DNA of 64,000 nt from Verrucomicrobiaceae bacterium. Its GTDB lineage: Bacteria > Verrucomicrobiota > Verrucomicrobiia > Opitutales > Intestinicryptomonadaceae. Both the position numbers and the translations under genes were made by a program. A model generated the notes under the pieces. The model was not told where the DNA came from and searched no databases. It saw only the letters and a program-made list of their open reading frames with translations. Shown here piece after piece: positions 4,996-15,435 of this stretch. Within the stretch, counting starts at the first letter, position 1, and the number at the start of each line of letters is the position of its first letter. The stretch covers positions 62,001 to 126,000 of the forward strand of contig SUVO01000003.1 of assembly GCA_015061955.1 (NCBI GenBank), given 5' to 3'.

Positions 4996-5793
4996 ATGGA
5001 AAATTCAATTAAGTGTATGTTTCCACGACGAGTCGATACAAATCTTGTACCGACATTGCCTTTGGTGAAGTGTCCACATGAGATAACACTTGTTGAAACT
5101 CCAGAGCAGTTAGCCGAAGCCGTAAAAGAAATTCAGCAAGAAACCCTTTTGGGATTTGATACAGAAACCCGACCAAGTTTTTCAAAAAATCAACATAATA
5201 AAGTGGCAATTTTGCAGTTGTCGGGCGAAAATAAAACTTGGATTATTAGATTGGTGCCTTTGGCTAATTGTTTAGAAGATATCTATAAGATTTTAGAAAA
5301 CCCCGATATTAAAAAAGTTGGTCTTGCTGTGCAAGGCGATATTAACGCTCTTTCGCAACGTCTGAAATTTGAGGCTGGTGGCTTTATTGACGTATCGAAA
5401 TATTCCAGTAGCATAGGCATTATAAATACTGGTATGAAAAATTTGGCAGCGTTGTTCTTGGGCGTAAGGGTGTCGAAGTCGTCGCAGATGTCGAATTGGG
5501 AAGCCGAAGAACTCACGCAAAAACAGATTGATTATGCTGCTACAGATTCATGGATGTCGCGTTGGTTGTATTTAGAAGTTAAAAAGGTAATTGATGAAAA
5601 TAGGTACGATGTAGAACCTGAACCAGAGCCTGTGCCAGAGTCGTTGACCTTTAGTAAAATTTTTGATTTGTTTTGTAAAGAAGTTAAAAATGCCTGTGTT
5701 GGTTTGAAAAAAAAAGTTAAGAAACTTTTTCATAAAAAACCACCTAAGAAAAAGAAACGTCGGAAGAAACGTGGTAAAAAGAAAAATATATAA
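4996..5793 (+). CDS. DEDDy 3'-5' exonuclease (RNase D/WRN exonuclease-like) with lysine-rich tail
   Basis: A 265-residue protein whose residues about 30-195 form an RNase D/WRN-type 3'-5' exonuclease domain. All catalytic positions are visible: Asp55 and Glu57 in FDTET, Asp115 in VQGDINAL, and Tyr180/Asp184 in DYAATD (the DEDDy signature). There is no HRDC domain, so this is not a full-length RNase D. Instead, a proline/glutamate linker leads to a strongly basic tail (about residues 238-265, mostly Lys and Arg), presumably for nucleic-acid binding. It is divergently transcribed from the PFK gene with 156 bp between them; I see nothing specific in that gap. Confidence 0.8.
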   Translation: MENSIKCMFPRRVDTNLVPTLPLVKCPHEITLVETPEQLAEAVKEIQQETLLGFDTETRPSFSKNQHNKVAILQLSGENKTWIIRLVPLANCLEDIYKILENPDIKKVGLAVQGDINALSQRLKFEAGGFIDVSKYSSSIGIINTGMKNLAALFLGVRVSKSSQMSNWEAEELTQKQIDYAATDSWMSRWLYLEVKKVIDENRYDVEPEPEPVPESLTFSKIFDLFCKEVKNACVGLKKKVKKLFHKKPPKKKKRRKKRGKKKNI

Positions 5794-5800
5794 TTTACAA

Positions 5801-5826
5801 AAGAGCATTCCAAACGGAATGCTCTT
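5801..5826. terminator. hairpin terminator downstream of the exonuclease gene
   Basis: An 11-bp perfect stem (5801-5811 with 5816-5826, loop AAAC) lies 7 bp after the exonuclease stop. The T-rich tail is on the minus-strand side, so it may act mainly as the last of several terminators for minus-strand transcription coming from tpiA, and secondarily for the plus-strand gene. Confidence 0.65.
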
Positions 5827-5880
5827 ATCACTATATAAATAATTTTCGCAATCAGATTAGAACCAACTTGGGAACGGAAA

Positions 5881-6077
5881 AAACGTGCGAGGCACGTGCT
5901 TAGGGAGATGTTTGTGAGTGGTGGGATAGTACTATGTACAGACCACCCGAACAAACGCTCCATAAGCTGTGAGGTGCCTCGATTGCGATCTATATACAAA
6001 AAAGGCAATTCCGAAGAATTGCCTTTTATCATTATTATATAAATTATTCGCAATCGAGACACCGTCCTCGCACGTTT
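5881..6077. repeat. structured intergenic repeat, unit A1 (TIR-bounded)
   Basis: A 197-bp unit bounded by an inverted repeat AAACGTGCGAG (5881-5891) and CTCGCACGTTT (6067-6077). Inside are two structured modules. Module one is a stem-loop: GTTTGT/ACAAAC, then GGTGG/CCACC, then GTAC-TAT-GTAC at 5929-5939, held in an outer CGAGGCAC/GTGCCTCG stem (5888-5895 with 5974-5981). Module two is a nested inverted repeat: outer arms CTCGATTGCGA (5978-5988) and TCGCAATCGAG (6048-6058) around the hairpin at 6001-6026. The flank at 5858 (TAGAACCAAC) resembles the flank of unit A3. No coding potential is evident. Confidence 0.8.
6001..6026 (-). terminator. intrinsic terminator with UUCG loop inside repeat unit A1
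   Basis: Stem AAAGGCAATTC (6001-6011) with GAATTGCCTTT (6016-6026). Read on the minus strand the loop is TTCG closed by C-G, the very stable UUCG tetraloop, and is followed by a T tract. This would be a third terminator for minus-strand transcription leaving tpiA. Confidence 0.75.
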
Positions 6078-6078
6078 A

Positions 6079-6260
6079 AAACGTGCGAGATTGTCCCGAT
6101 GCTTTTGCGTTTTAGCGAGCGTTGCTGTGCTATGCACTGTAGTCGAAGCTAAAATCAAAATGGAGGGCAAAGCGTTTTCTTTGATGAGTTTATTTAATAA
6201 AAAAAGGCACTTCAACGAAGTGCCTTATAGTATAAATTAAAACTCATCATCAAAGAAAAC
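6079..6260. repeat. structured intergenic repeat, unit A2 (right terminal repeat missing)
   Basis: The left terminal repeat AAACGTGCGAG (6079-6089) abuts the right end of A1 with one base between. Module one is a stem-loop GTTTTAGC/GCTAAAAT with apex GTGC-TAT-GCAC at 6127-6137. Module two (6171-6260) is the nested inverted repeat GTTTTCTTTGATGAGTTT (6174-6191) against a matching arm at 6240-6260 that has a 3-base ATC duplication. It encloses the hairpin at 6204-6226. The 90-bp module two is nearly identical to 6397-6486 in A3. The expected CTCGCACG end is absent after 6260. Confidence 0.8.
6204..6226 (-). terminator. intrinsic terminator inside repeat unit A2
   Basis: Stem AAGGCACTTC (6204-6213) with GAAGTGCCTT (6217-6226) and, on the minus strand, a run of seven T. 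Identical in sequence to the hairpins in units A3 and B. Confidence 0.75.
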
Positions 6261-6306
6261 GTGGTTAAATAAAATTAGTTTAGAACCGACATGTGTTGGA
6301 AGAATT

Positions 6307-6503
6307 AAAACGTGCGAGATTCGAGCTGGAATTTGTGTTTTGTGAGCCGTAGCGTACTATGTACGTGAGGCGATACGAAACCAAATAACAGCCGAAAGCG
6401 TTTTCTTTGATGAGTTTATTTAATAAAAAAAGGCACTTCAACGAAGTGCCTTATAGTGTAAATTAAAACTCATCATCAAAGAAAACGCGCTCTCGCACGT
6501 TTT
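6307..6503. repeat. structured intergenic repeat, unit A3 (TIR-bounded)
   Basis: A 197-bp unit with 13-bp terminal inverted repeats AAAACGTGCGAGA (6307-6319) and TCTCGCACGTTTT (6491-6503). The right end stops 2 bp short of the tpiA stop codon (6506-6508). Module one is a long stem-loop: GTTTTGT/ACGAAAC, GCC/GGC, then GCGTAC-TAT-GTACGT with the apex at 6354-6364. Module two (6397-6486) is the nested inverted repeat around the hairpin at 6430-6452. Apart from an extra block there, unit B at 14152-14432 is nearly the same sequence. Confidence 0.82.
6430..6452 (-). terminator. first intrinsic terminator downstream of tpiA, inside repeat unit A3
   Basis: Stem AAGGCACTTC (6430-6439) with GAAGTGCCTT (6443-6452), followed on the minus strand by a T tract, about 55 bp after the tpiA stop. 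It is the proximal terminator of the pgk-tpiA transcript. Confidence 0.78.
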
Positions 6504-6505
6504 TT

Positions 6506-7270
6506 TTATGCGTTGGTTGCAGCTGTGATGAGAGCCAAGAATGAGTCGGCTTTCAATGCAGCACCACCAATGAGACCACCGTCGATGTCCTTCTGAGCTA
6601 AGAGTTCAGGAGCATTTTCAGGTTTCATCGAACCACCATAGAGGATTTGCATTTCTTCAGCAACGTCAGCACCGAAGAGGTCAGTTAAAATCTTGCGAAT
6701 TTCAGCGTGAACTTCTTGAGCCATTTCTGGAGTTGCAGTTTTGCCAGTGCCGATAGCCCAAACAGGTTCGTAAGCAATAACAACGTTCTTAGCGTCTTCT
6801 TTCGAGATTTCAGCTAAGCCCTTGATTGTTTGTTCAGAAACAACTTCGATAGTTTTGCCAGCTTCGCGTTCTTCGAGTTTTTCGCCAACGCAGAGTATTG
6901 GTTTCATACCATTAGCGAGAACTGCCTTAACTTTTTCGTTGATGAAGCAGTTGCATTCTTTGAAGTATTCGCGACGTTCACTATGACCGAGGATAACGTA
7001 AGCGCAGTTGAATTCTTTGAGCATATCTGCAGCAATTTCGCCAGTGTAAGCACCACTTGCCTTAGTGTACATATTTTGAGCACCGAGGCAGATTGTCGAG
7101 CCAGCGAGAGCCTTGCTTGCAGCGTCGAGGGCAGTGAAAGTAGGGCATACAGCTACGTCAACCTTAGTTTGCGAGCCAGCACCAGCCTTGATGCCTTCGA
7201 TAAGTGCAACTGCTTCAGCTGCAGTTTTGTTCATTTTCCAGTTTCCAGCAATAAAATATTTGCGTGCCAT
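6506..7270 (-). CDS. tpiA: triose-phosphate isomerase
   Basis: A 254-residue cytoplasmic TIM-barrel enzyme interconverting glyceraldehyde-3-phosphate and dihydroxyacetone phosphate. The catalytic residues are in place: Asn10/Lys12 in AGNWKMN, His96 in ILGHSERR, and Glu168 in AYEPVWAIGTGKT with its phosphate-gripping loop. Length is typical. It starts 26 bp after the pgk stop, so pgk-tpiA is a likely operon. Its 3' end runs straight into the repeat cluster at 5827-6503, which supplies several minus-strand terminators. Confidence 0.97.
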   Translation of the reverse strand: MARKYFIAGNWKMNKTAAEAVALIEGIKAGAGSQTKVDVAVCPTFTALDAASKALAGSTICLGAQNMYTKASGAYTGEIAADMLKEFNCAYVILGHSERREYFKECNCFINEKVKAVLANGMKPILCVGEKLEEREAGKTIEVVSEQTIKGLAEISKEDAKNVVIAYEPVWAIGTGKTATPEMAQEVHAEIRKILTDLFGADVAEEMQILYGGSMKPENAPELLAQKDIDGGLIGGAALKADSFLALITAATNA

Positions 7271-8745: not shown

Positions 8746-10263
8746 TTAACTGCGTCTGCGATAAGCTACAAAGCCCAATGCAATAGCACCAAAAATCATA
8801 GCCCATTCTGCTGGTTCTGGAATTGCAGCCAACGATGCCGAATACAAGTAGCTTCTGCCGTTTTCTGTTATCCATTCAAGGTCATCGATATACATGTAGT
8901 TATCGATATCGTCTGTCTTGTAAGAAGCTTGAACGTCTTGTAAGCTAAATGTTTTATCTTCATCAACGCTGAGTGACTTGTTAATAAAATCATCGAGAAT
9001 TAAGTAGAATATTTCACCATTTTGAACAGTGATACCACCTAATGCGAGTGCGTTTTCATTGAGGTCGATTGTCAAAGTTGCACCGTCTCTGAGAGCGAAA
9101 CCACCCAACTTTTGATCGGCTTCAAGTATAACTCTTACATTGGCTAATGTTCCTGTTGTTGTTACACCGTTTTTTTCAACGCCGTCTGTATAATGGTAAT
9201 CGCCATGTTGCAAGTAGATAACAGAATCTTTCTGCGATGCTACGCCATTTGTTCTGATATCGCTACCTTCACGCAATGTGAGTGTAGAGTTGTCCGACAT
9301 ATATAAGTTATTGCCAGTTGCAATGCTAATTGTACCAGCATTGTCGAGCGATCTTTTTATGAACATATCTGCATAGGCATTTGTATCGGTAATATTTATA
9401 ATACCACTTTTACCAACAGTAACATTGTTACCCCAGAAAGCGAATGATTTACGCCATGAACATGAGTTGAAACCAACATTCATAGTTCCATTAACTGTTA
9501 AATCTATACCACCATCTTCGGTGCTTGTATATTCTTCTTTAATTCCATGGAAAACGCCCATCGATGCTGTGCTATCTTTATTGATGGTAAGTACATTGCC
9601 ATTTCCTTGTGCAACAAGCCATGACATGTTGTTATCTTTATATGCTTGACTTGTGTATACTGCAAGATTACCTGTCGAAACAACATTACCTTGTTCGTCA
9701 ACTTCACCAATTGTTAATTTTGCATTACCTTTTAGTCTCAAATAAGATTTTTCTGTCGACAATGTTTTACCACCACCAACAGTTACTTTTGAACCAGTAT
9801 TTAAGAATGCAGAATTTTTGAAAATTGTGTTTGCATGCAAGAACAAAGGTGTGCTTGTTCCACTTTCATTGTTGGTCATATCTACAATGTATGTACCATC
9901 ACCATAAATATTTGCTACATTACCACCAGCACCAACAATACGCGTAGAAACTGTAAATGTTTTGCCTTCTTTGATTTCAACATTCATAGTTTCGCCACCA
10001 GCATTAGGATTTAAATATCCTGTTGAAAAGCTTTCGTCGACAATAAATGTACCATTTGTTGGAATACCCGTTTTGCCAAACGATAGGTTTGCTGTGGTTT
10101 TATTATACAAAGCAATGAAGTCCGACGCTTTATACGTTTCATTGCCAAGGATACGAATGCTTGTTTCTGTTACTTCAGTGAGTTGTTCGCTTTCTTGTGC
10201 AATAACATAACCCCCCCCTATAAGAGAGGTTGCCAAAGCACACAATAGTGTTAATTTTTTCAT
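8746..10263 (-). CDS. secreted PEP-CTERM protein, beta-helix-like surface protein
   Basis: A 505-residue exported protein of unknown function. Signal peptide MKKLTLLCALATSLIGGGYVIA is followed by a long low-complexity, Gly/Thr/Asn-rich beta-structured region (repeats of the NNxTxTVGxxxxLxI type, as in right-handed beta-helix adhesins). The C-terminus is a canonical PEP-CTERM signal: IPEPAEWAMIFG, hydrophobic ALGFVA, then YRRRS. PEP-CTERM proteins are processed by exosortase and tied to exopolysaccharide and the cell surface; no exosortase gene is in this window. Both termini match the next gene (10477-12492) almost exactly. The codons for GGGY contain a G8 homopolymer (10211-10218 on the plus strand) that could slip. 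Confidence 0.85.
   Translation of the reverse strand: MKKLTLLCALATSLIGGGYVIAQESEQLTEVTETSIRILGNETYKASDFIALYNKTTANLSFGKTGIPTNGTFIVDESFSTGYLNPNAGGETMNVEIKEGKTFTVSTRIVGAGGNVANIYGDGTYIVDMTNNESGTSTPLFLHANTIFKNSAFLNTGSKVTVGGGKTLSTEKSYLRLKGNAKLTIGEVDEQGNVVSTGNLAVYTSQAYKDNNMSWLVAQGNGNVLTINKDSTASMGVFHGIKEEYTSTEDGGIDLTVNGTMNVGFNSCSWRKSFAFWGNNVTVGKSGIINITDTNAYADMFIKRSLDNAGTISIATGNNLYMSDNSTLTLREGSDIRTNGVASQKDSVIYLQHGDYHYTDGVEKNGVTTTGTLANVRVILEADQKLGGFALRDGATLTIDLNENALALGGITVQNGEIFYLILDDFINKSLSVDEDKTFSLQDVQASYKTDDIDNYMYIDDLEWITENGRSYLYSASLAAIPEPAEWAMIFGAIALGFVAYRRRS
10211..10218. repeat. G8/C8 homopolymer in the signal-peptide codons of PEP-CTERM gene 1
   Basis: Eight consecutive C on the plus strand (G on the coding strand) encode the GGG of LIGGGY. 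Such a tract stands out in this AT-rich sequence. Length change by one base would frameshift the protein near residue 17. Confidence 0.75.
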
Positions 10264-10328
10264 TTTTATTCCTTATGTATTGTTATTGTTTTAGTTATAA
10301 ATTTCAAAATAAATCCAATTTCGGATAA

Positions 10329-10357
10329 ATTTTAGCATGTTTTTTTATTCTTGTATA
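10329..10357 (-). promoter_or_regulatory. predicted promoter of PEP-CTERM gene 1
   Basis: On the minus strand, TATACA (10352-10357) and TAAAAT (10329-10334) are separated by exactly 17 bp. The same two hexamers with the same spacing occur upstream of the paralogous gene at 12562-12590, as does an AT-rich block containing TTTGTC further upstream. Conservation between paralogs is the main support. Confidence 0.55.
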
Positions 10358-10386
10358 CTTTTAAAAATGACAAATTTTTTTAAAAT

Positions 10387-10394
10387 TTGACATT
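10387..10394. repeat. G8/C8 homopolymer upstream of PEP-CTERM gene 1
   Basis: Eight consecutive C on the plus strand lie about 120 bp upstream of the gene 1 start and about 30 bp upstream of its predicted -35. It is the third C8 tract of this locus; I saw no other in the window. Confidence 0.65.
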
Positions 10395-10421
10395 TACCCC
10401 CCCCTTTTTTTGGAATAAAAC

Positions 10422-10454
10422 AAAAAAGGAGTGTTTTTCAACACTCCATTTTTT
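10422..10454 (-). terminator. intrinsic terminator of PEP-CTERM gene 2
   Basis: Stem GGAGTGTT (10428-10435) with AACACTCC (10440-10447), followed by a T run on the minus strand, about 30 bp after the gene 2 stop codon. Confidence 0.8.
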
Positions 10455-10476
10455 AGGAACTAAAATGTTTTGTTTA

Positions 10477-12492
10477 TTAACTACGTCTGCGATAAGCTAC
10501 AAAACCTAATGCGATAGCACCGAAAATCATAGCCCATTCTGCAGGTTCTGGAACAACCGTGTTAACGAAGAACGAACCATCGCCATTATCTACAAAGTAG
10601 ATATCATAACCATTTTCAGCAATGAACTTGTTTTTGAATGCGTCGGTATTTTCAATGTCGAATACTCTGAATTGATTTAAAACTTCGCCCTTAACCAACA
10701 CTGAAGCATCGTTGAAGAATTCGCCAGTAAACGAGTCAATAGTAGAATCTTCACCAAGAACCAAGCTACCATTTTCACCAAACGAGATTGCCAACAACAT
10801 ATTGTTTTGCGAGAATGCAAACGAGCCTAATTCATTAGCAGCATTGAAAACAAATTCAGTTGTTGTTAACGAAGCTGGTGAAGTTTTATCAGGTGTTTCA
10901 AGGTTGATAGTAGATTGTGCTTGCGAATTGAATTCGGCACCATTCATACCAATGTTCAATGAATTTGCACCATTGAGAATAATCTTTGTATTTGATACAT
11001 TTATGCGATCTTCAAGTTGAAGTTTTGCACCATTTTCAATTAGTATAGTCCCATTAGCAATCCAATTCTTTGCTTGCGATGTAGCACCAGTTACAGAGGT
11101 ATCGAACTTTTGTATTATATGTGCTGTTGATTTCAATGTAATAGTAGTTGATGCACCATTACTGAATGCAAGTTTGAAATCGTCGCCACCTCCATTTACA
11201 TTGCGACCCGTACCACTTACTATAATTTTTCCACCAATTTCTGAATTAGCAGAAATTCTTAAGCCACCATAGGTTTCAAATTCTGACTTAGAGTCCATTT
11301 TTAACACCATAGCGTTGTTGCCTGTTGTATCACCTGCAGACCAACCATTCTTAATTAAAAGCTTCGAGTTTTGCATATCAAAACCACTTTCAACATTGAT
11401 TCTTGATGAAACCGTAAGTGTTCTGCGAGTATCGTCTGCACTCTTTAGTGTAATCAGTGCTCCTTTTATTGTTTCGGTGTTTTTTGTCAAAGTTGAATCA
11501 GCTGTCATTTCGATAATCTTCTCGCCTTTGGTTTTTGTGTAGAAATTACCACCAGTGATTTTACCTTTGATATGAATTGCGCTGTTTTCATCGGCTTCTA
11601 ATTTTCCGAGGTAGATATTATCAGATTCAACATAAACTGTAGATTTATTTGATTTATCAGAATTATTTACATTCAAAACAAGTGTTGTTGATTTTGCGTA
11701 TATGTTTACATTCTGACCCGATAAATCGAAATTATTTCTATAACCTACATCTCTGTTTACTTCTGTTAAGAAATTAACTGTTGAACCAGCTACAAACGAT
11801 TCATCAAATTTTACAGTTACATCGCTATTTATAGCTGTGTTGATAATTGCCGCACCTTTACTTGTATCTTGTGTTAGCGATTCTTGTGTGAATACAACAG
11901 TACCACCAACTTTGTCGGTTGTTGTTGCGCTAGCGCCATGGAATACGAACAACTGACCAGCAATATTACCTCTTGTATTTTGATAAACGGTAGAACCATC
12001 AGCAAGATAAATAGATGAATCGGAGTACATATACGAAATTTTCTCGCCATAATTCAAGTATAGGGTAGTGCCACCCTCAACTCTAATACCATTAGTTGAA
12101 ATCCAAACAGGCGATGCACTGTCTTGTACAGTAAGAGTCATAGAACTATTTTCGCCACCAACAATATGTGCACCATTCCAGCCGAATGTTTGTGAACCTG
12201 CAGAACTGCCTGATTGTTGGAATTTTGATGTATAGTGCTTTGAATCTATTGTTGCACTGTAGTCGCCGTCTATATAAAAATAAATAGAACCAGTTATATG
12301 GCGAGCTCCACCATCTGTTCTATTGTGGATGAATGTTTGAGCATCGGCTGTGAAGTAGTAGTTGCGATTGGCATCAAGAATAAGATCTTCGTACGAAGAT
12401 TTATCCGATGGAAAATACCAATCGTCTGCTATCACATAGCCCCCCCCTACAAGAGAGGTTGCCAACGCACAAATTGTTGTTAGTTTTTTCAT
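10477..12492 (-). CDS. secreted PEP-CTERM protein, larger paralog
   Basis: A 671-residue exported protein with signal peptide MKKLTTICALATSLVGGGYVIA, a long Ser/Thr/Asn/Gly-rich beta-structured passenger (recurrent short strands such as STINLETPD and TITLKST), and the PEP-CTERM tail VPEPAEWAMIFG with YRRRS at the very end. The ends are near-identical to the 505-residue neighbour while the middle is diverged, the pattern of a duplicated surface-protein gene with a variable passenger. Residues around 610-640 (FRVFDIENTDAFKN) resemble the end module of autotransporter-like PEP-CTERM proteins. A G8 tract interrupts the signal-peptide codons. Function unknown; surface or exopolysaccharide attachment is inferred from the sorting signal. 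Confidence 0.85.
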   Translation of the reverse strand: MKKLTTICALATSLVGGGYVIADDWYFPSDKSSYEDLILDANRNYYFTADAQTFIHNRTDGGARHITGSIYFYIDGDYSATIDSKHYTSKFQQSGSSAGSQTFGWNGAHIVGGENSSMTLTVQDSASPVWISTNGIRVEGGTTLYLNYGEKISYMYSDSSIYLADGSTVYQNTRGNIAGQLFVFHGASATTTDKVGGTVVFTQESLTQDTSKGAAIINTAINSDVTVKFDESFVAGSTVNFLTEVNRDVGYRNNFDLSGQNVNIYAKSTTLVLNVNNSDKSNKSTVYVESDNIYLGKLEADENSAIHIKGKITGGNFYTKTKGEKIIEMTADSTLTKNTETIKGALITLKSADDTRRTLTVSSRINVESGFDMQNSKLLIKNGWSAGDTTGNNAMVLKMDSKSEFETYGGLRISANSEIGGKIIVSGTGRNVNGGGDDFKLAFSNGASTTITLKSTAHIIQKFDTSVTGATSQAKNWIANGTILIENGAKLQLEDRINVSNTKIILNGANSLNIGMNGAEFNSQAQSTINLETPDKTSPASLTTTEFVFNAANELGSFAFSQNNMLLAISFGENGSLVLGEDSTIDSFTGEFFNDASVLVKGEVLNQFRVFDIENTDAFKNKFIAENGYDIYFVDNGDGSFFVNTVVPEPAEWAMIFGAIALGFVAYRRRS
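12440..12447. repeat. G8/C8 homopolymer in the signal-peptide codons of PEP-CTERM gene 2
   Basis: Eight C on the plus strand encode part of LVGGGY, at the same codons as the tract in PEP-CTERM gene 1. Confidence 0.75.
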
Positions 12493-12561
12493 TTTAGTTT
12501 TTTCTCTTTGTGATTGTTGTAATTTTGAAAGTTTCTTAGATACTACACACCTAAGAAATTC

Positions 12562-12590
12562 ATTTTACATTATTTCTTACTTTTTGTATA
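12562..12590 (-). promoter_or_regulatory. predicted promoter of PEP-CTERM gene 2
   Basis: On the minus strand TATACA (12585-12590), a 17-bp spacer and TAAAAT (12562-12567) match the arrangement upstream of PEP-CTERM gene 1. The upstream AAAAAAATTTGTC block is also shared. Confidence 0.55.
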
Positions 12591-12627
12591 CTTTTAAAAA
12601 AGACAAATTTTTTTAAAAAATGACAAT

Positions 12628-12659
12628 AAAACGACCCCCTTTAAAAGTGAGGTCGTTTT
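12628..12659 (-). terminator. intrinsic terminator of the PHP-domain gene
   Basis: Stem AAAACGACC (12628-12636) with GGTCGTTTT (12651-12659), with a T-rich tail on the minus strand, about 40 bp after the stop of the PHP-domain gene. Confidence 0.75.
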
Positions 12660-12696
12660 GAAATTGCGTTATTTTTTATATGTAATTATGTTGATA

Positions 12697-14043
12697 TTAT
12701 GCGTTTGGCAGAGGTTGTGTCCAAGCACATTGAGTTTTTGGGAAACAAGGTTTTTCGGGAATTCTTGTTGGGATATTTGATGTTATTTTTGCACGAACAT
12801 ATAAATCGTTAAACGCTAATTTATAAGAAGCTTTTGTACCTTTAACTGTTTTTACAACTTTGCCAATGTCGTCAGAATAGATTGGCAAGGTACGAGCAAA
12901 TCGCTTATTTTTTGGACTAAAAGCTTTGCCTTTAACAGTATGGTCGAAACCACGTTTTGTTGTTATAAACTCAATAGTGTATTCCACACCATCAACAGCA
13001 TCGACTTCTACCGACAACGTTTTTGCTGATTTGTCTAAAACAACGTCTTTAAGCAACACTCCCGAAGTTGCGTAAAAATCACCTTCGGCAATAGCTTTTA
13101 TTGTGTTATCGACTGTAAATTCATCATTTACACGAGCCATTACCCAAGCATTATTTACACCAGCAGCTTTGTCTATGCGTTCAGGGTCATAGTAGTGGGT
13201 ATCATCTGACGCTGTTGCGTAAATTACGCCTTGTTTCTTTTCTAAGCGATGAGCCAAAAGAACGTCCCAAAATTTATCGGTGGTAAATTCTGAAACATCG
13301 GCACTTGCTCCGTTGTTACAGATTTCAAAGTGCGTAAGTTCAGGGAATTTTAGGATATCTTCGGGTAGGACATCCCATGCACACCAGAATGGATGATTGA
13401 GCATCATAAACATTGGGCGTTTCGATTTTGCTTTTAATTCTTTGAAAGTATCTAAACTTTCTTGAATTATGCTTGGAACGCTTTTAGCTTTCATGTTTAT
13501 TTCAAATGTCTTTTCTACATTGAAGACGTTTAAATGACACTGACGCTCTACTCCATTAGGATAATCTGCTCTGCGAGTAATTTCTTCGCCACCTGCAAGT
13601 AGAAATTTGTTTGGAACTTCAAATTCTTCTTTGAGCTTATCGAAGGTTTTTAAACGCAAAAATTCTTTACACGCAAAATTCTTTTTTATGTAAGAATCTT
13701 TATATTGTTCCTTGGTTCTTTCAAATTCTTTTCGTGTAAGTGATGGTGGCCATTGCATCGACTTTGGTAAAATGCGAATCCACGCTTCTTTGTCATCGGG
13801 GAAGGCGTTGTGTTCAGTCATTACAAGCATATCAAAGCCACGCTTTTTGAATTCAGTTATGGCTACTTCAGGCATACTTTGACCATCTGACCACAATGTA
13901 TGAGCATGTAAGGCACATTTCTTCCAGATTGGCTTTTTCTTGAGTTTATCTGAGGCATTTGCTATTGGCGAAAACGCAGTTGCACCCAAGGTTAAAGCTG
14001 TTGTTTTCAAAAAGTTTCTTCGTTGTAATTTGTTGTTTTGCAT
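12697..14043 (-). CDS. Tat-exported PHP-domain metal-dependent phosphoesterase-like protein
   Basis: A 448-residue protein with a twin-arginine signal (RRNFLK at residues 8-13, then a hydrophobic segment and ANASD). From about residue 40 there is a PHP (polymerase and histidinol phosphatase) domain: HAHTLWSDG (His46, His48, Asp53) and MTEHN (Glu77-His78) form the usual metal cluster. A downstream His in MLNHPFW and the ASDDTHY segment fit later metal ligands. Export by Tat implies the metallated, folded enzyme works in the periplasm. PHP proteins hydrolyse phosphoesters, but the substrate here is unknown. A C-terminal beta domain (residues ~330-440) is unassigned. Confidence 0.82.
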   Translation of the reverse strand: MQNNKLQRRNFLKTTALTLGATAFSPIANASDKLKKKPIWKKCALHAHTLWSDGQSMPEVAITEFKKRGFDMLVMTEHNAFPDDKEAWIRILPKSMQWPPSLTRKEFERTKEQYKDSYIKKNFACKEFLRLKTFDKLKEEFEVPNKFLLAGGEEITRRADYPNGVERQCHLNVFNVEKTFEINMKAKSVPSIIQESLDTFKELKAKSKRPMFMMLNHPFWCAWDVLPEDILKFPELTHFEICNNGASADVSEFTTDKFWDVLLAHRLEKKQGVIYATASDDTHYYDPERIDKAAGVNNAWVMARVNDEFTVDNTIKAIAEGDFYATSGVLLKDVVLDKSAKTLSVEVDAVDGVEYTIEFITTKRGFDHTVKGKAFSPKNKRFARTLPIYSDDIGKVVKTVKGTKASYKLAFNDLYVRAKITSNIPTRIPEKPCFPKTQCAWTQPLPNA

Positions 14044-14105: not shown

Positions 14106-14151
14106 TTATTATATAAAAATTTCGCAATCGAGGTACCGACCTCGCACGTTT
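14106..14151. repeat. truncated repeat unit, matching the right end of A1
   Basis: TTATTATATAAA at 14108-14117 followed by TTCGCAATCGAGG, ACCG and CTCGCACGTTT (14141-14151) closely matches the last ~45 bp of unit A1 (6033-6077). It abuts unit B with the same head-to-end CTCGCACGTTT/AAAACGTG junction seen between A1 and A2. Confidence 0.75.
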
Positions 14152-14430
14152 AAAACGTGTGAGATTCGAGCTGGAAACCAAAACCCGAAGGGTACGGTTG
14201 AATGCGAACGCAGTGAGCAACCCGTAAGGGCGAGACGGTGCGTAGCACGCGAGTCAATTTGCGTTTTGTGAGCCGTAGCGTACTATGTACGTGAGGCGAT
14301 ACGAAACCAAATAACAGCCGAAAGCGTTTTCTTTGATGAGTTTATTTAATAAAAAAAAAGGCACTTCAACGAAGTGCCTTATAGTATAAATTAAAAACTC
14401 ATCATCAAAGAAAACGAGCTCTCGCACGTT

Positions 14431-14432
<2 letters not shown>
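14152..14432. repeat. structured intergenic repeat, unit B (with internal extra block)
   Basis: A 281-bp unit with terminal inverted repeats AAAACGTGTGAGA (14152-14164) and TCTCGCACGTTTT (14420-14432); one pair is G-T. The right end overlaps the gap stop codon (14431-14433). Outside an extra block of about 80 bp (roughly 14177-14256) the sequence is almost identical to A3, including the GTAC-TAT-GTAC apex (14280-14290) and the nested inverted repeat module (14323-14415) with its hairpin. The extra block is GC-richer and has its own GTGC-GTA-GCAC stem. Confidence 0.82.
14361..14385 (-). terminator. intrinsic terminator of gap, inside repeat unit B
   Basis: The AAGGCACTTC/GAAGTGCCTT hairpin is followed on the minus strand by nine or more T residues, about 45-70 bp after the gap stop codon. 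Same hairpin as in units A2 and A3. Confidence 0.75.

Positions 14433-15435
<1,003 letters not shown>

Follow-up and report, generated by a model that had tools for sequence, protein, structure and literature searches.

A palindromic repeat with a predicted terminator at the 3' ends of genes in a Verrucomicrobiaceae bacterium

The stretch of DNA analysed here, hereafter the window, comprises 64,000 nt of a Verrucomicrobiaceae bacterium (assembly GCA_015061955.1, contig SUVO01000003.1, positions 62,001 to 126,000) and carries four palindromic repeat units, three of them in an array that starts at the stop codon of the gene tpiA. What kind of element these units represent, and how they came to stand at gene ends, is the question raised by this locus. 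The original prediction had read them either as a mobile non-autonomous element or as a folded RNA. The most probable answer, to which we assign a probability of roughly 65%, is a species-specific, non-autonomous element resembling a miniature inverted-repeat transposable element (MITE), provided with its own terminator and inserting at the 3' ends of genes. The units are short, non-coding, bounded by terminal inverted repeats and present in many dispersed copies, as is characteristic of MITEs.

Copy number and position at stop codons

The genome (2.4 Mb, 93% complete) was searched by a module scan of 76 targeted stretches, in which units were counted by their T modules. Looked for beyond the four units of the original prediction, further copies proved numerous: at least 108 units were found in about 70 clusters, every cluster being unidirectional. 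Units are chained directly or via a 28-nt linker, arms and linkers are swapped between subfamilies, and copies at unrelated loci are up to 95–99% identical. Genome-wide, the exact site AAAACGTGCGAG occurs 82 times against once for a reversed control pattern, and Blast matches in the genome numbered 73 with a b unit, 73 with an a unit and 62 with a c unit as query. The a unit had no match in any of 27 relatives, and a joined b and c query matched nothing in 53 relatives save for 31 nt of its terminator part in a single species; no full copy was present among 53 other genomes, and named genomes scanned for the exact pattern had no hit. An origin from phages or plasmids was rejected, as searches of phages, plasmids and viral contigs all came back empty. 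Contigs break at repeat units, and contig ends coincide with them, yet the majority of arrays are contig-internal and have flanks of their own, and an assembly artefact was rejected. Three small repeat families are inserted in or chained with the units, namely D (CACATGCGAAGCATTGGCGACGGTGCCCA; loci L050, L053, L085 and L086), E (TGAACTCGCTCGCACGGTGG...; L059, L061, L072 and L081) and F (GCAAAGCAATTACCTTCGGTGCCCAACA; L055, L079 and L087).

Position relative to genes was assessed for the arrays with the gene-side end as first module (n = 56), open reading frames (ORFs) of at least 200 codons being accepted as hosts. In 47 of these 56 the first unit sits 1–6 nt around the TAA of such an ORF; the same end of the unit always points towards the gene, and the stop is mostly composed of the TA of the gene and the A of the unit. 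TA adjoins most unit ends, and intergenic stretches hold about 20 TA each, the stop codon being one. With the TA sites of the intergenic stretch as null model and arrays treated as independent, the chance of hitting the stop was about 0.105 per array, which gives P of about 5e-37 for 46 of 54 arrays (47 of 56 is the final count). The next gene is in tandem in 19 flush cases and convergent in 16. Some hosts carry what we take to be PEP-CTERM-like tails (VPEPAEWALIFGAIALGFIAYRRRK), and 10 of the 47 are PEP-CTERM genes whose ends are almost the same in sequence. The ends of the other 37 have no common sequence beyond the stop codon; no motif was detected in the 24 nt before their stops (≤ 0.42 bit).

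Among the nine exceptions, several units lie just past T-runs, one of them (locus L058) past an apparent native terminator, and those of L053 and L071 follow a repeat remnant; in L130 an ORF of 426 codons continues for about 12 codons into the unit. Since this ORF and four ORFs of a sister species, described below, read into their elements, position is the constant feature and not the supply of a stop codon. Selection alone does not account well for the exact position and polarity.

Repeat units of the window and their fold

The four units occupy 5881–6077, 6079–6262, 6308–6502 and 14153–14431, within 1–2 nt of the limits first given for them. As the original prediction had described, AAACGTGCGAG and its complement delimit the units 5881/6077, 6308/6502 and 14153/14431, the left end of the last being AAACGTGTGAG; the second unit keeps only its 6079 end, the other (at about 6262) being joined to a 28-nt linker. 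The terminal-repeat motif has 9 matches in the window versus 0.9 expected. The linker, named K, is confined in the window to positions beside units, and its reading as a general genomic signal was rejected because all its occurrences there adjoin units. Followed along the minus strand away from the gene, the array runs from the tpiA stop through an a1 unit, K1, an a2 unit, a b unit, K2 and a partial terminator arm to the stop of a convergent gene at 5793. The features of the window are as follows.

6506..7270, minus strand: tpiA, host gene (ORF; orthologues in sister species); its TAA stop (6508-6506) is followed by the array.
6308..6502, minus strand: unit 1, subfamily a1, Y-shaped and bounded by terminal inverted repeats; gene-side end at 6502.
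6430..6452, minus strand: predicted intrinsic terminator hairpin AAGGCACTTCGTTGAAGTGCCTT with T-run, arm 1 of unit 1 (terminator scan).
6280..6307, minus strand: linker K1 (TAATTCTTCCAACACATGTCGGTTCTAA; module scan).
6079..6262, minus strand: unit 2, subfamily a2; the linker stands in place of the gene-side terminal repeat, far terminal inverted repeat at 6079-6089.
6204..6226, minus strand: predicted intrinsic terminator hairpin of unit 2.
5881..6077, minus strand: unit 3, subfamily b, with an intact terminal repeat at either end.
6000..6027, no strand assigned: predicted bidirectional terminator hairpin of unit 3, detected on both strands.
5854..5880, minus strand: K2-like linker (TTTCCGTTCCCAAGTTGGTTCTAATCT; module scan).
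5794..5853, minus strand: trailing partial arm 1 with predicted terminator AGAGCATTCCGTTTGGAATGCTCT, adjoining the stop of the convergent gene 4996-5793.
14431..15429, minus strand: gapA-like gene, presumably encoding GAPDH on our reading of its sequence; its TAA stop overlaps the terminal repeat of the adjoining unit at 14431.
14153..14431, minus strand: a1 unit whose arm 2 is enlarged by a palindromic insert of about 84 nt; the same insert is found in L075:2805-3081.
14177..14258, minus strand: approximate span of that insert, from comparison with a1 units without it.
14358..14380, minus strand: predicted intrinsic terminator hairpin of the unit 14153-14431.
14121..14151, minus strand: gene-side end of a truncated subfamily-b unit, immediately past the a1 unit.

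Complete units without inserts measure 186–202 nt (about 195 nt), and two subfamily-a units with inserts are longer. The unit folds as a Y, composed of a 12-bp outer stem (AAACGTGYGWGG/CCWCRCACGTTT), an arm 1 made of a closing stem (about 15 bp) and the terminator hairpin, and an arm 2 with a 3-nt apex. Of 44 complete units, each considered in its own minimum-energy fold, 43 keep 10 or more of the 12 outer pairs, and the number of inner branches is exactly two in 38. Fold z-scores were far past chance, both as RNA (−10.6 for 6305-6508, which contains unit 1) and as DNA (−13.1 for unit 3, 5881-6077).

Pairing is conserved together with changes on both sides. The compensatory replacement of an A-T by a G-C pair, noticed at the outset in the apex, was recovered (GTAC-TAT-GTAC at 5929, 6354 and 14280; GTGC-TAT-GCAC at 6127), and the lower stems, said to differ in sequence and still to pair, do so; in an alignment of the 44 units 96% of cells are paired, compared with 75% in shuffles and 35–62% when the alignment is slid. 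Two-sided changes affect 15 of 25 pairs, with 234 two-sided cells versus about 17 one-sided; these cells are not independent events, as most changes separate four subfamilies, which differ in sequence and retain pairing. Replacements of A-T by T-A or of C-G by T-A are frequent and G-U intermediates few, for which reason the pattern appears to fit palindromes maintained at the DNA level, or renewed when one arm is copied from the other, better than a constraint on RNA.

The terminator scan detected a hairpin with a T-run in each of the four units of the window, one of them on both strands. Judged by GC hairpin and T-run, the GGCA(A/C)TTC hairpin is a predicted intrinsic (Rho-independent) terminator. 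Its sequence varies among units (GGCACTTC, GGCAATTC, GAGCATTCC, GTAGGCAAT, GGCTATTC and GGCGTTTC) and stays paired. In the window, native hairpins mostly start 10–30 nt past the stop, and in sister species they start further on, so that flush hairpins were rejected as the usual terminator form of the genus. The terminator nature of this hairpin, the start at the stop codon with fixed polarity and the chaining via the 28-nt linker are additions to what had been described before.

Runs of G were also observed. About 15 promoter-like sites consist of TTGACA, about 10 nt, a run of 8–10 G and TAGCAT, several of them upstream of PEP-CTERM or surface-protein-like genes; they include L047:1133, L050:2856 (reverse complement), L060:2853, L071:443, L078:3572 and 5099, L083:302 and 8010, and L129:210. 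Runs of G8 or more number 21 in 438 kb of stretches of this genome versus 4 in 794 kb of sister samples, and a G run in the promoter spacer suggests phase variation. At 10180-10480 and 12400-12720 of the window, two related genes with alike upstream regions carry a run of 7–8 G in the 5' coding part (MKKLTLLCALATSLIGGGYVIA...), possibly a site of translational phase variation.

Sister species, mobilising enzymes and known repeat families

Empty sites were found at tpiA: in 11 sister species no unit follows this gene, and an ordinary terminator stands there, the orthologues being 71–86% identical with the same C-terminus. Similarity of tpiA to records of Opitutales and other Verrucomicrobiota is 61–65%, which, taken with the PEP-CTERM-like tails of host genes, assigns the genome to Verrucomicrobiota and probably to Opitutales. 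Orthologues of the gapA-like gene in three sister species are 85–91% identical. Host proteins, those of tpiA and gapA among them, end where their orthologues end or within a few residues of that point; units therefore stand at natural gene ends, none of them newly created.

Sister species G001 has palindromes of its own (GATTTGGCGAATGC... and GGGCGCGTGAAAAGGGGG...), with 41 Blast matches, which are unrelated to the present family and also stand at stop codons (L161:6650-6921, L161:10497-10725, L162:5306-5580 and L175-L193). Of the copies read in context, most lie at the stop of a long ORF or only a few nt from it, in one polarity, six of them at the junction TGA/TTTGGCG and others at TAA or TAG, some 11–12 nt past the stop; four ORFs (L170, L175, L180 and L181) run into the element, which folds as a single long hairpin and not as a Y. 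Two orthologue pairs have the same C-terminus followed by unrelated elements in the two species: L073/L189, which we take to be an NrdJ-like gene (74% identical, both ending in DGGCGA), and L092/L170 (82% identical). The expected number of such coincidences is 0.4 (about 48 and 18 hosts, about 2000 genes each), and the observed pair alone is not significant. No comparable repeat family was found in samples of 60–200 kb from G004, G007, G008, G009 and G010. Sister species G003 has a 200-nt tandem intergenic repeat of a different kind, with a CCCGCGCATCGCGGG terminator hairpin (L147:16329-16592, L148:8337-8828).

Enzymes that could mobilise the units were sought by domain. The Y1/RAYT transposase domain (PF01797) had no match in the 93% complete genome, controls being positive. 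An IS630-type partner, prompted by the TA ends, was rejected, with no match to DDE_3 (PF13358) in the genome, as was retro-mobility, since none of 14 genomes of the genus matched reverse transcriptase (PF00078). The fetched loci contained no long, cargo-bearing unit; an autonomous partner may be absent from the assembly, given its completeness and the contig breaks at units. Tyrosine recombinases gave four matches, two strong and Xer-like in score and two weaker; the weaker two are members of a family present in several copies across the genus, even in species where no repeats were detected. This family (L135:2355-3386, L136:3403-4392) has 7–9 matches per genome in G001, G003, G004, G007 and G012, and fragments at the ends of contigs C23 and C35 of the present genome; it was rejected as partner since its distribution does not track the repeats.

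Among known families, YPAL, SPRITE, RUP and the GTAG-tagged palindromes come closest. De Gregorio, in 2006, is said to have found YPAL of Yersinia closely downstream of stop codons and overlapping terminators. YPAL/RU-2 elements are palindromes of about 168 bp with many intergenic copies, predicted from empty and filled sites to have been recently mobile, and their targets span or adjoin dyad symmetry (PMC2229807). The present units are likewise palindromic, intergenic and numerous, but identity was rejected: YPAL has internal and not terminal inverted repeats, no terminal TA and duplications of 3–26 bp, whereas here the terminal repeats are conserved, the terminator is internal and the end lies on the stop codon itself. 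The pneumococcal SPRITE is a terminator-like repeat with AAAA/TTTT ends enriched near gene 3' ends (PMC3049150), but it has 30 copies, forms a single hairpin and not a Y, and is not reported as fixed at stop codons. RUP, a 107-bp MITE with terminal inverted repeats and TA ends, clustered and nested with other repeats, and the modular pneumococcal BOX share these traits with the present units but differ in size and fold, and RUP is presumed to depend for its mobility on a partner of IS630 type, not found here. GTAG-tagged repetitive extragenic palindromes (REPs), which occur in Verrucomicrobia (O. terrae), often supply with their ends the TAG stop of flanking ORFs (PMC3733652). Contact between palindromic repeats and stop codons is therefore not new; the strictness, the polarity, the Y-shaped unit with a built-in terminator and the arrays are different. 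The mobile element of the original prediction had been called MITE/REPIN-like. Copy number, dispersal, subfamilies with compensatory changes and the empty sites in sister species support a structured, mobile-looking non-autonomous element, and REPIN/RAYT was rejected, as GTAG REPs and REPINs measure 20–40 bp versus about 195 nt, carry a GTAG/CGTC tag in place of AAACGTGYGWGG ends and are linked to RAYT.

Proposed insertion, rival explanations and significance

If the units are MITE-like, a new copy would insert with its gene-side end at the last sense codon or the stop codon, in a single polarity, and push earlier copies downstream, forming one-way arrays joined directly or via the 28-nt linker. 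The newest unit would then stand at the stop, with older ones displaced; an unbroken terminal repeat next to the stop, and gene-side ends that are truncated after linkers, suggest this order. The unit would provide the stop (TA + A) and a terminator, leaving the protein intact and the native terminator replaced or preceded, and insertion would be tolerated since neither the protein nor termination is lost. What we infer from these arrangements is mobility as such, the sequence in which units were inserted, and termination in the cell.

Several points weigh against insertion as the origin. Occupied and empty sites could be compared only between species and not, for the same intergenic sequence, within a pair of strains, so that movement is presumed and not directly observed. 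A transposase sharing the unit ends, envisaged in the original prediction, was not found among Y1, IS630-type and reverse-transcriptase enzymes, other transposase families not having been searched. No clean target-site duplication is apparent, TA being common at the ends and tandem joints holding 0–2 variable nt, and copies could in principle have spread by recombination.

Stop codons are signals of translation and not DNA sites, and to our knowledge nothing in an ordinary transposase recognises them. Tentatively, and on balance rather doubtfully, what steers integration to where the reading frame ends may be not a DNA sequence but the sensing of the stop codon or of the mRNA 3' end (coupled to translation termination or transcription), and such an element may have arisen at least twice in one genus with unrelated sequences; a process that exposes DNA or RNA where translation ends might conceivably be involved.

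That insertion was random at TA and that only copies at stop codons survived purifying selection, others harming genes, seems unlikely. The TA at most unit ends agrees with it, in-gene insertions would be harmful, and pneumococcal SPRITE and RUP are thought to be concentrated between convergent genes for such a reason (PMC3049150); yet with about 20 TA in each intergenic stretch the stop itself was occupied in 47 of 56 arrays, and neither the single polarity where the terminator is bidirectional nor the read-through ORFs would be explained.

Decidedly unlikely is an exchange of mobile 3' ends, in which recombination or gene conversion puts an existing 3' region in place of that of another gene, from the stop codon on. 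The arms and linkers swapped among subfamilies, the lack of recognised native terminators next to units and the near-identical ends of the PEP-CTERM hosts speak for such an exchange, but the 37 hosts without common end sequence past the stop would offer no homology for recombination.

A folded regulatory RNA of the 3' untranslated region, selected for RNA structure, would account for the strong fold (z of −10.6), the covariation and the location in the transcribed 3' end. This half of the original prediction is nevertheless set aside as the principal explanation, and we regard it as very unlikely: arm 2 lies past the terminator, two-sided cells far outnumber one-sided ones, the A-T/T-A swaps with few G-U intermediates point to pairing at the DNA level or arm copying, hosts are diverse, and units are absent in sister species. 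A known RNA family was rejected, with no Rfam covariance-model match at gathering score.

Integron-like attC sites recombined by a tyrosine recombinase are hardly credible in spite of the one-way arrays beside stop codons and the two recombinases besides the strongest Xer-like ones, as no gene cassettes lie between units, no GTTRRRY/RYYYAAC core pair was seen, the two recombinases score 30 and 28 bits versus an integron-integrase cut-off of 265 (TIGR02249), and their relatives occur in species without repeats seen in the sampled DNA.

Taken as a MITE-like element with its own terminator, the family would have rewritten housekeeping genes such as tpiA and gapA at their 3' ends with repeated terminators, and its many copies are natural replicates for studying the joint change of palindrome arms. 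The 47 of 56 landings at stops, in one polarity, together with the unrelated family of the sister species, would be either a very clean record of selection or the trace of integration coupled to gene expression.
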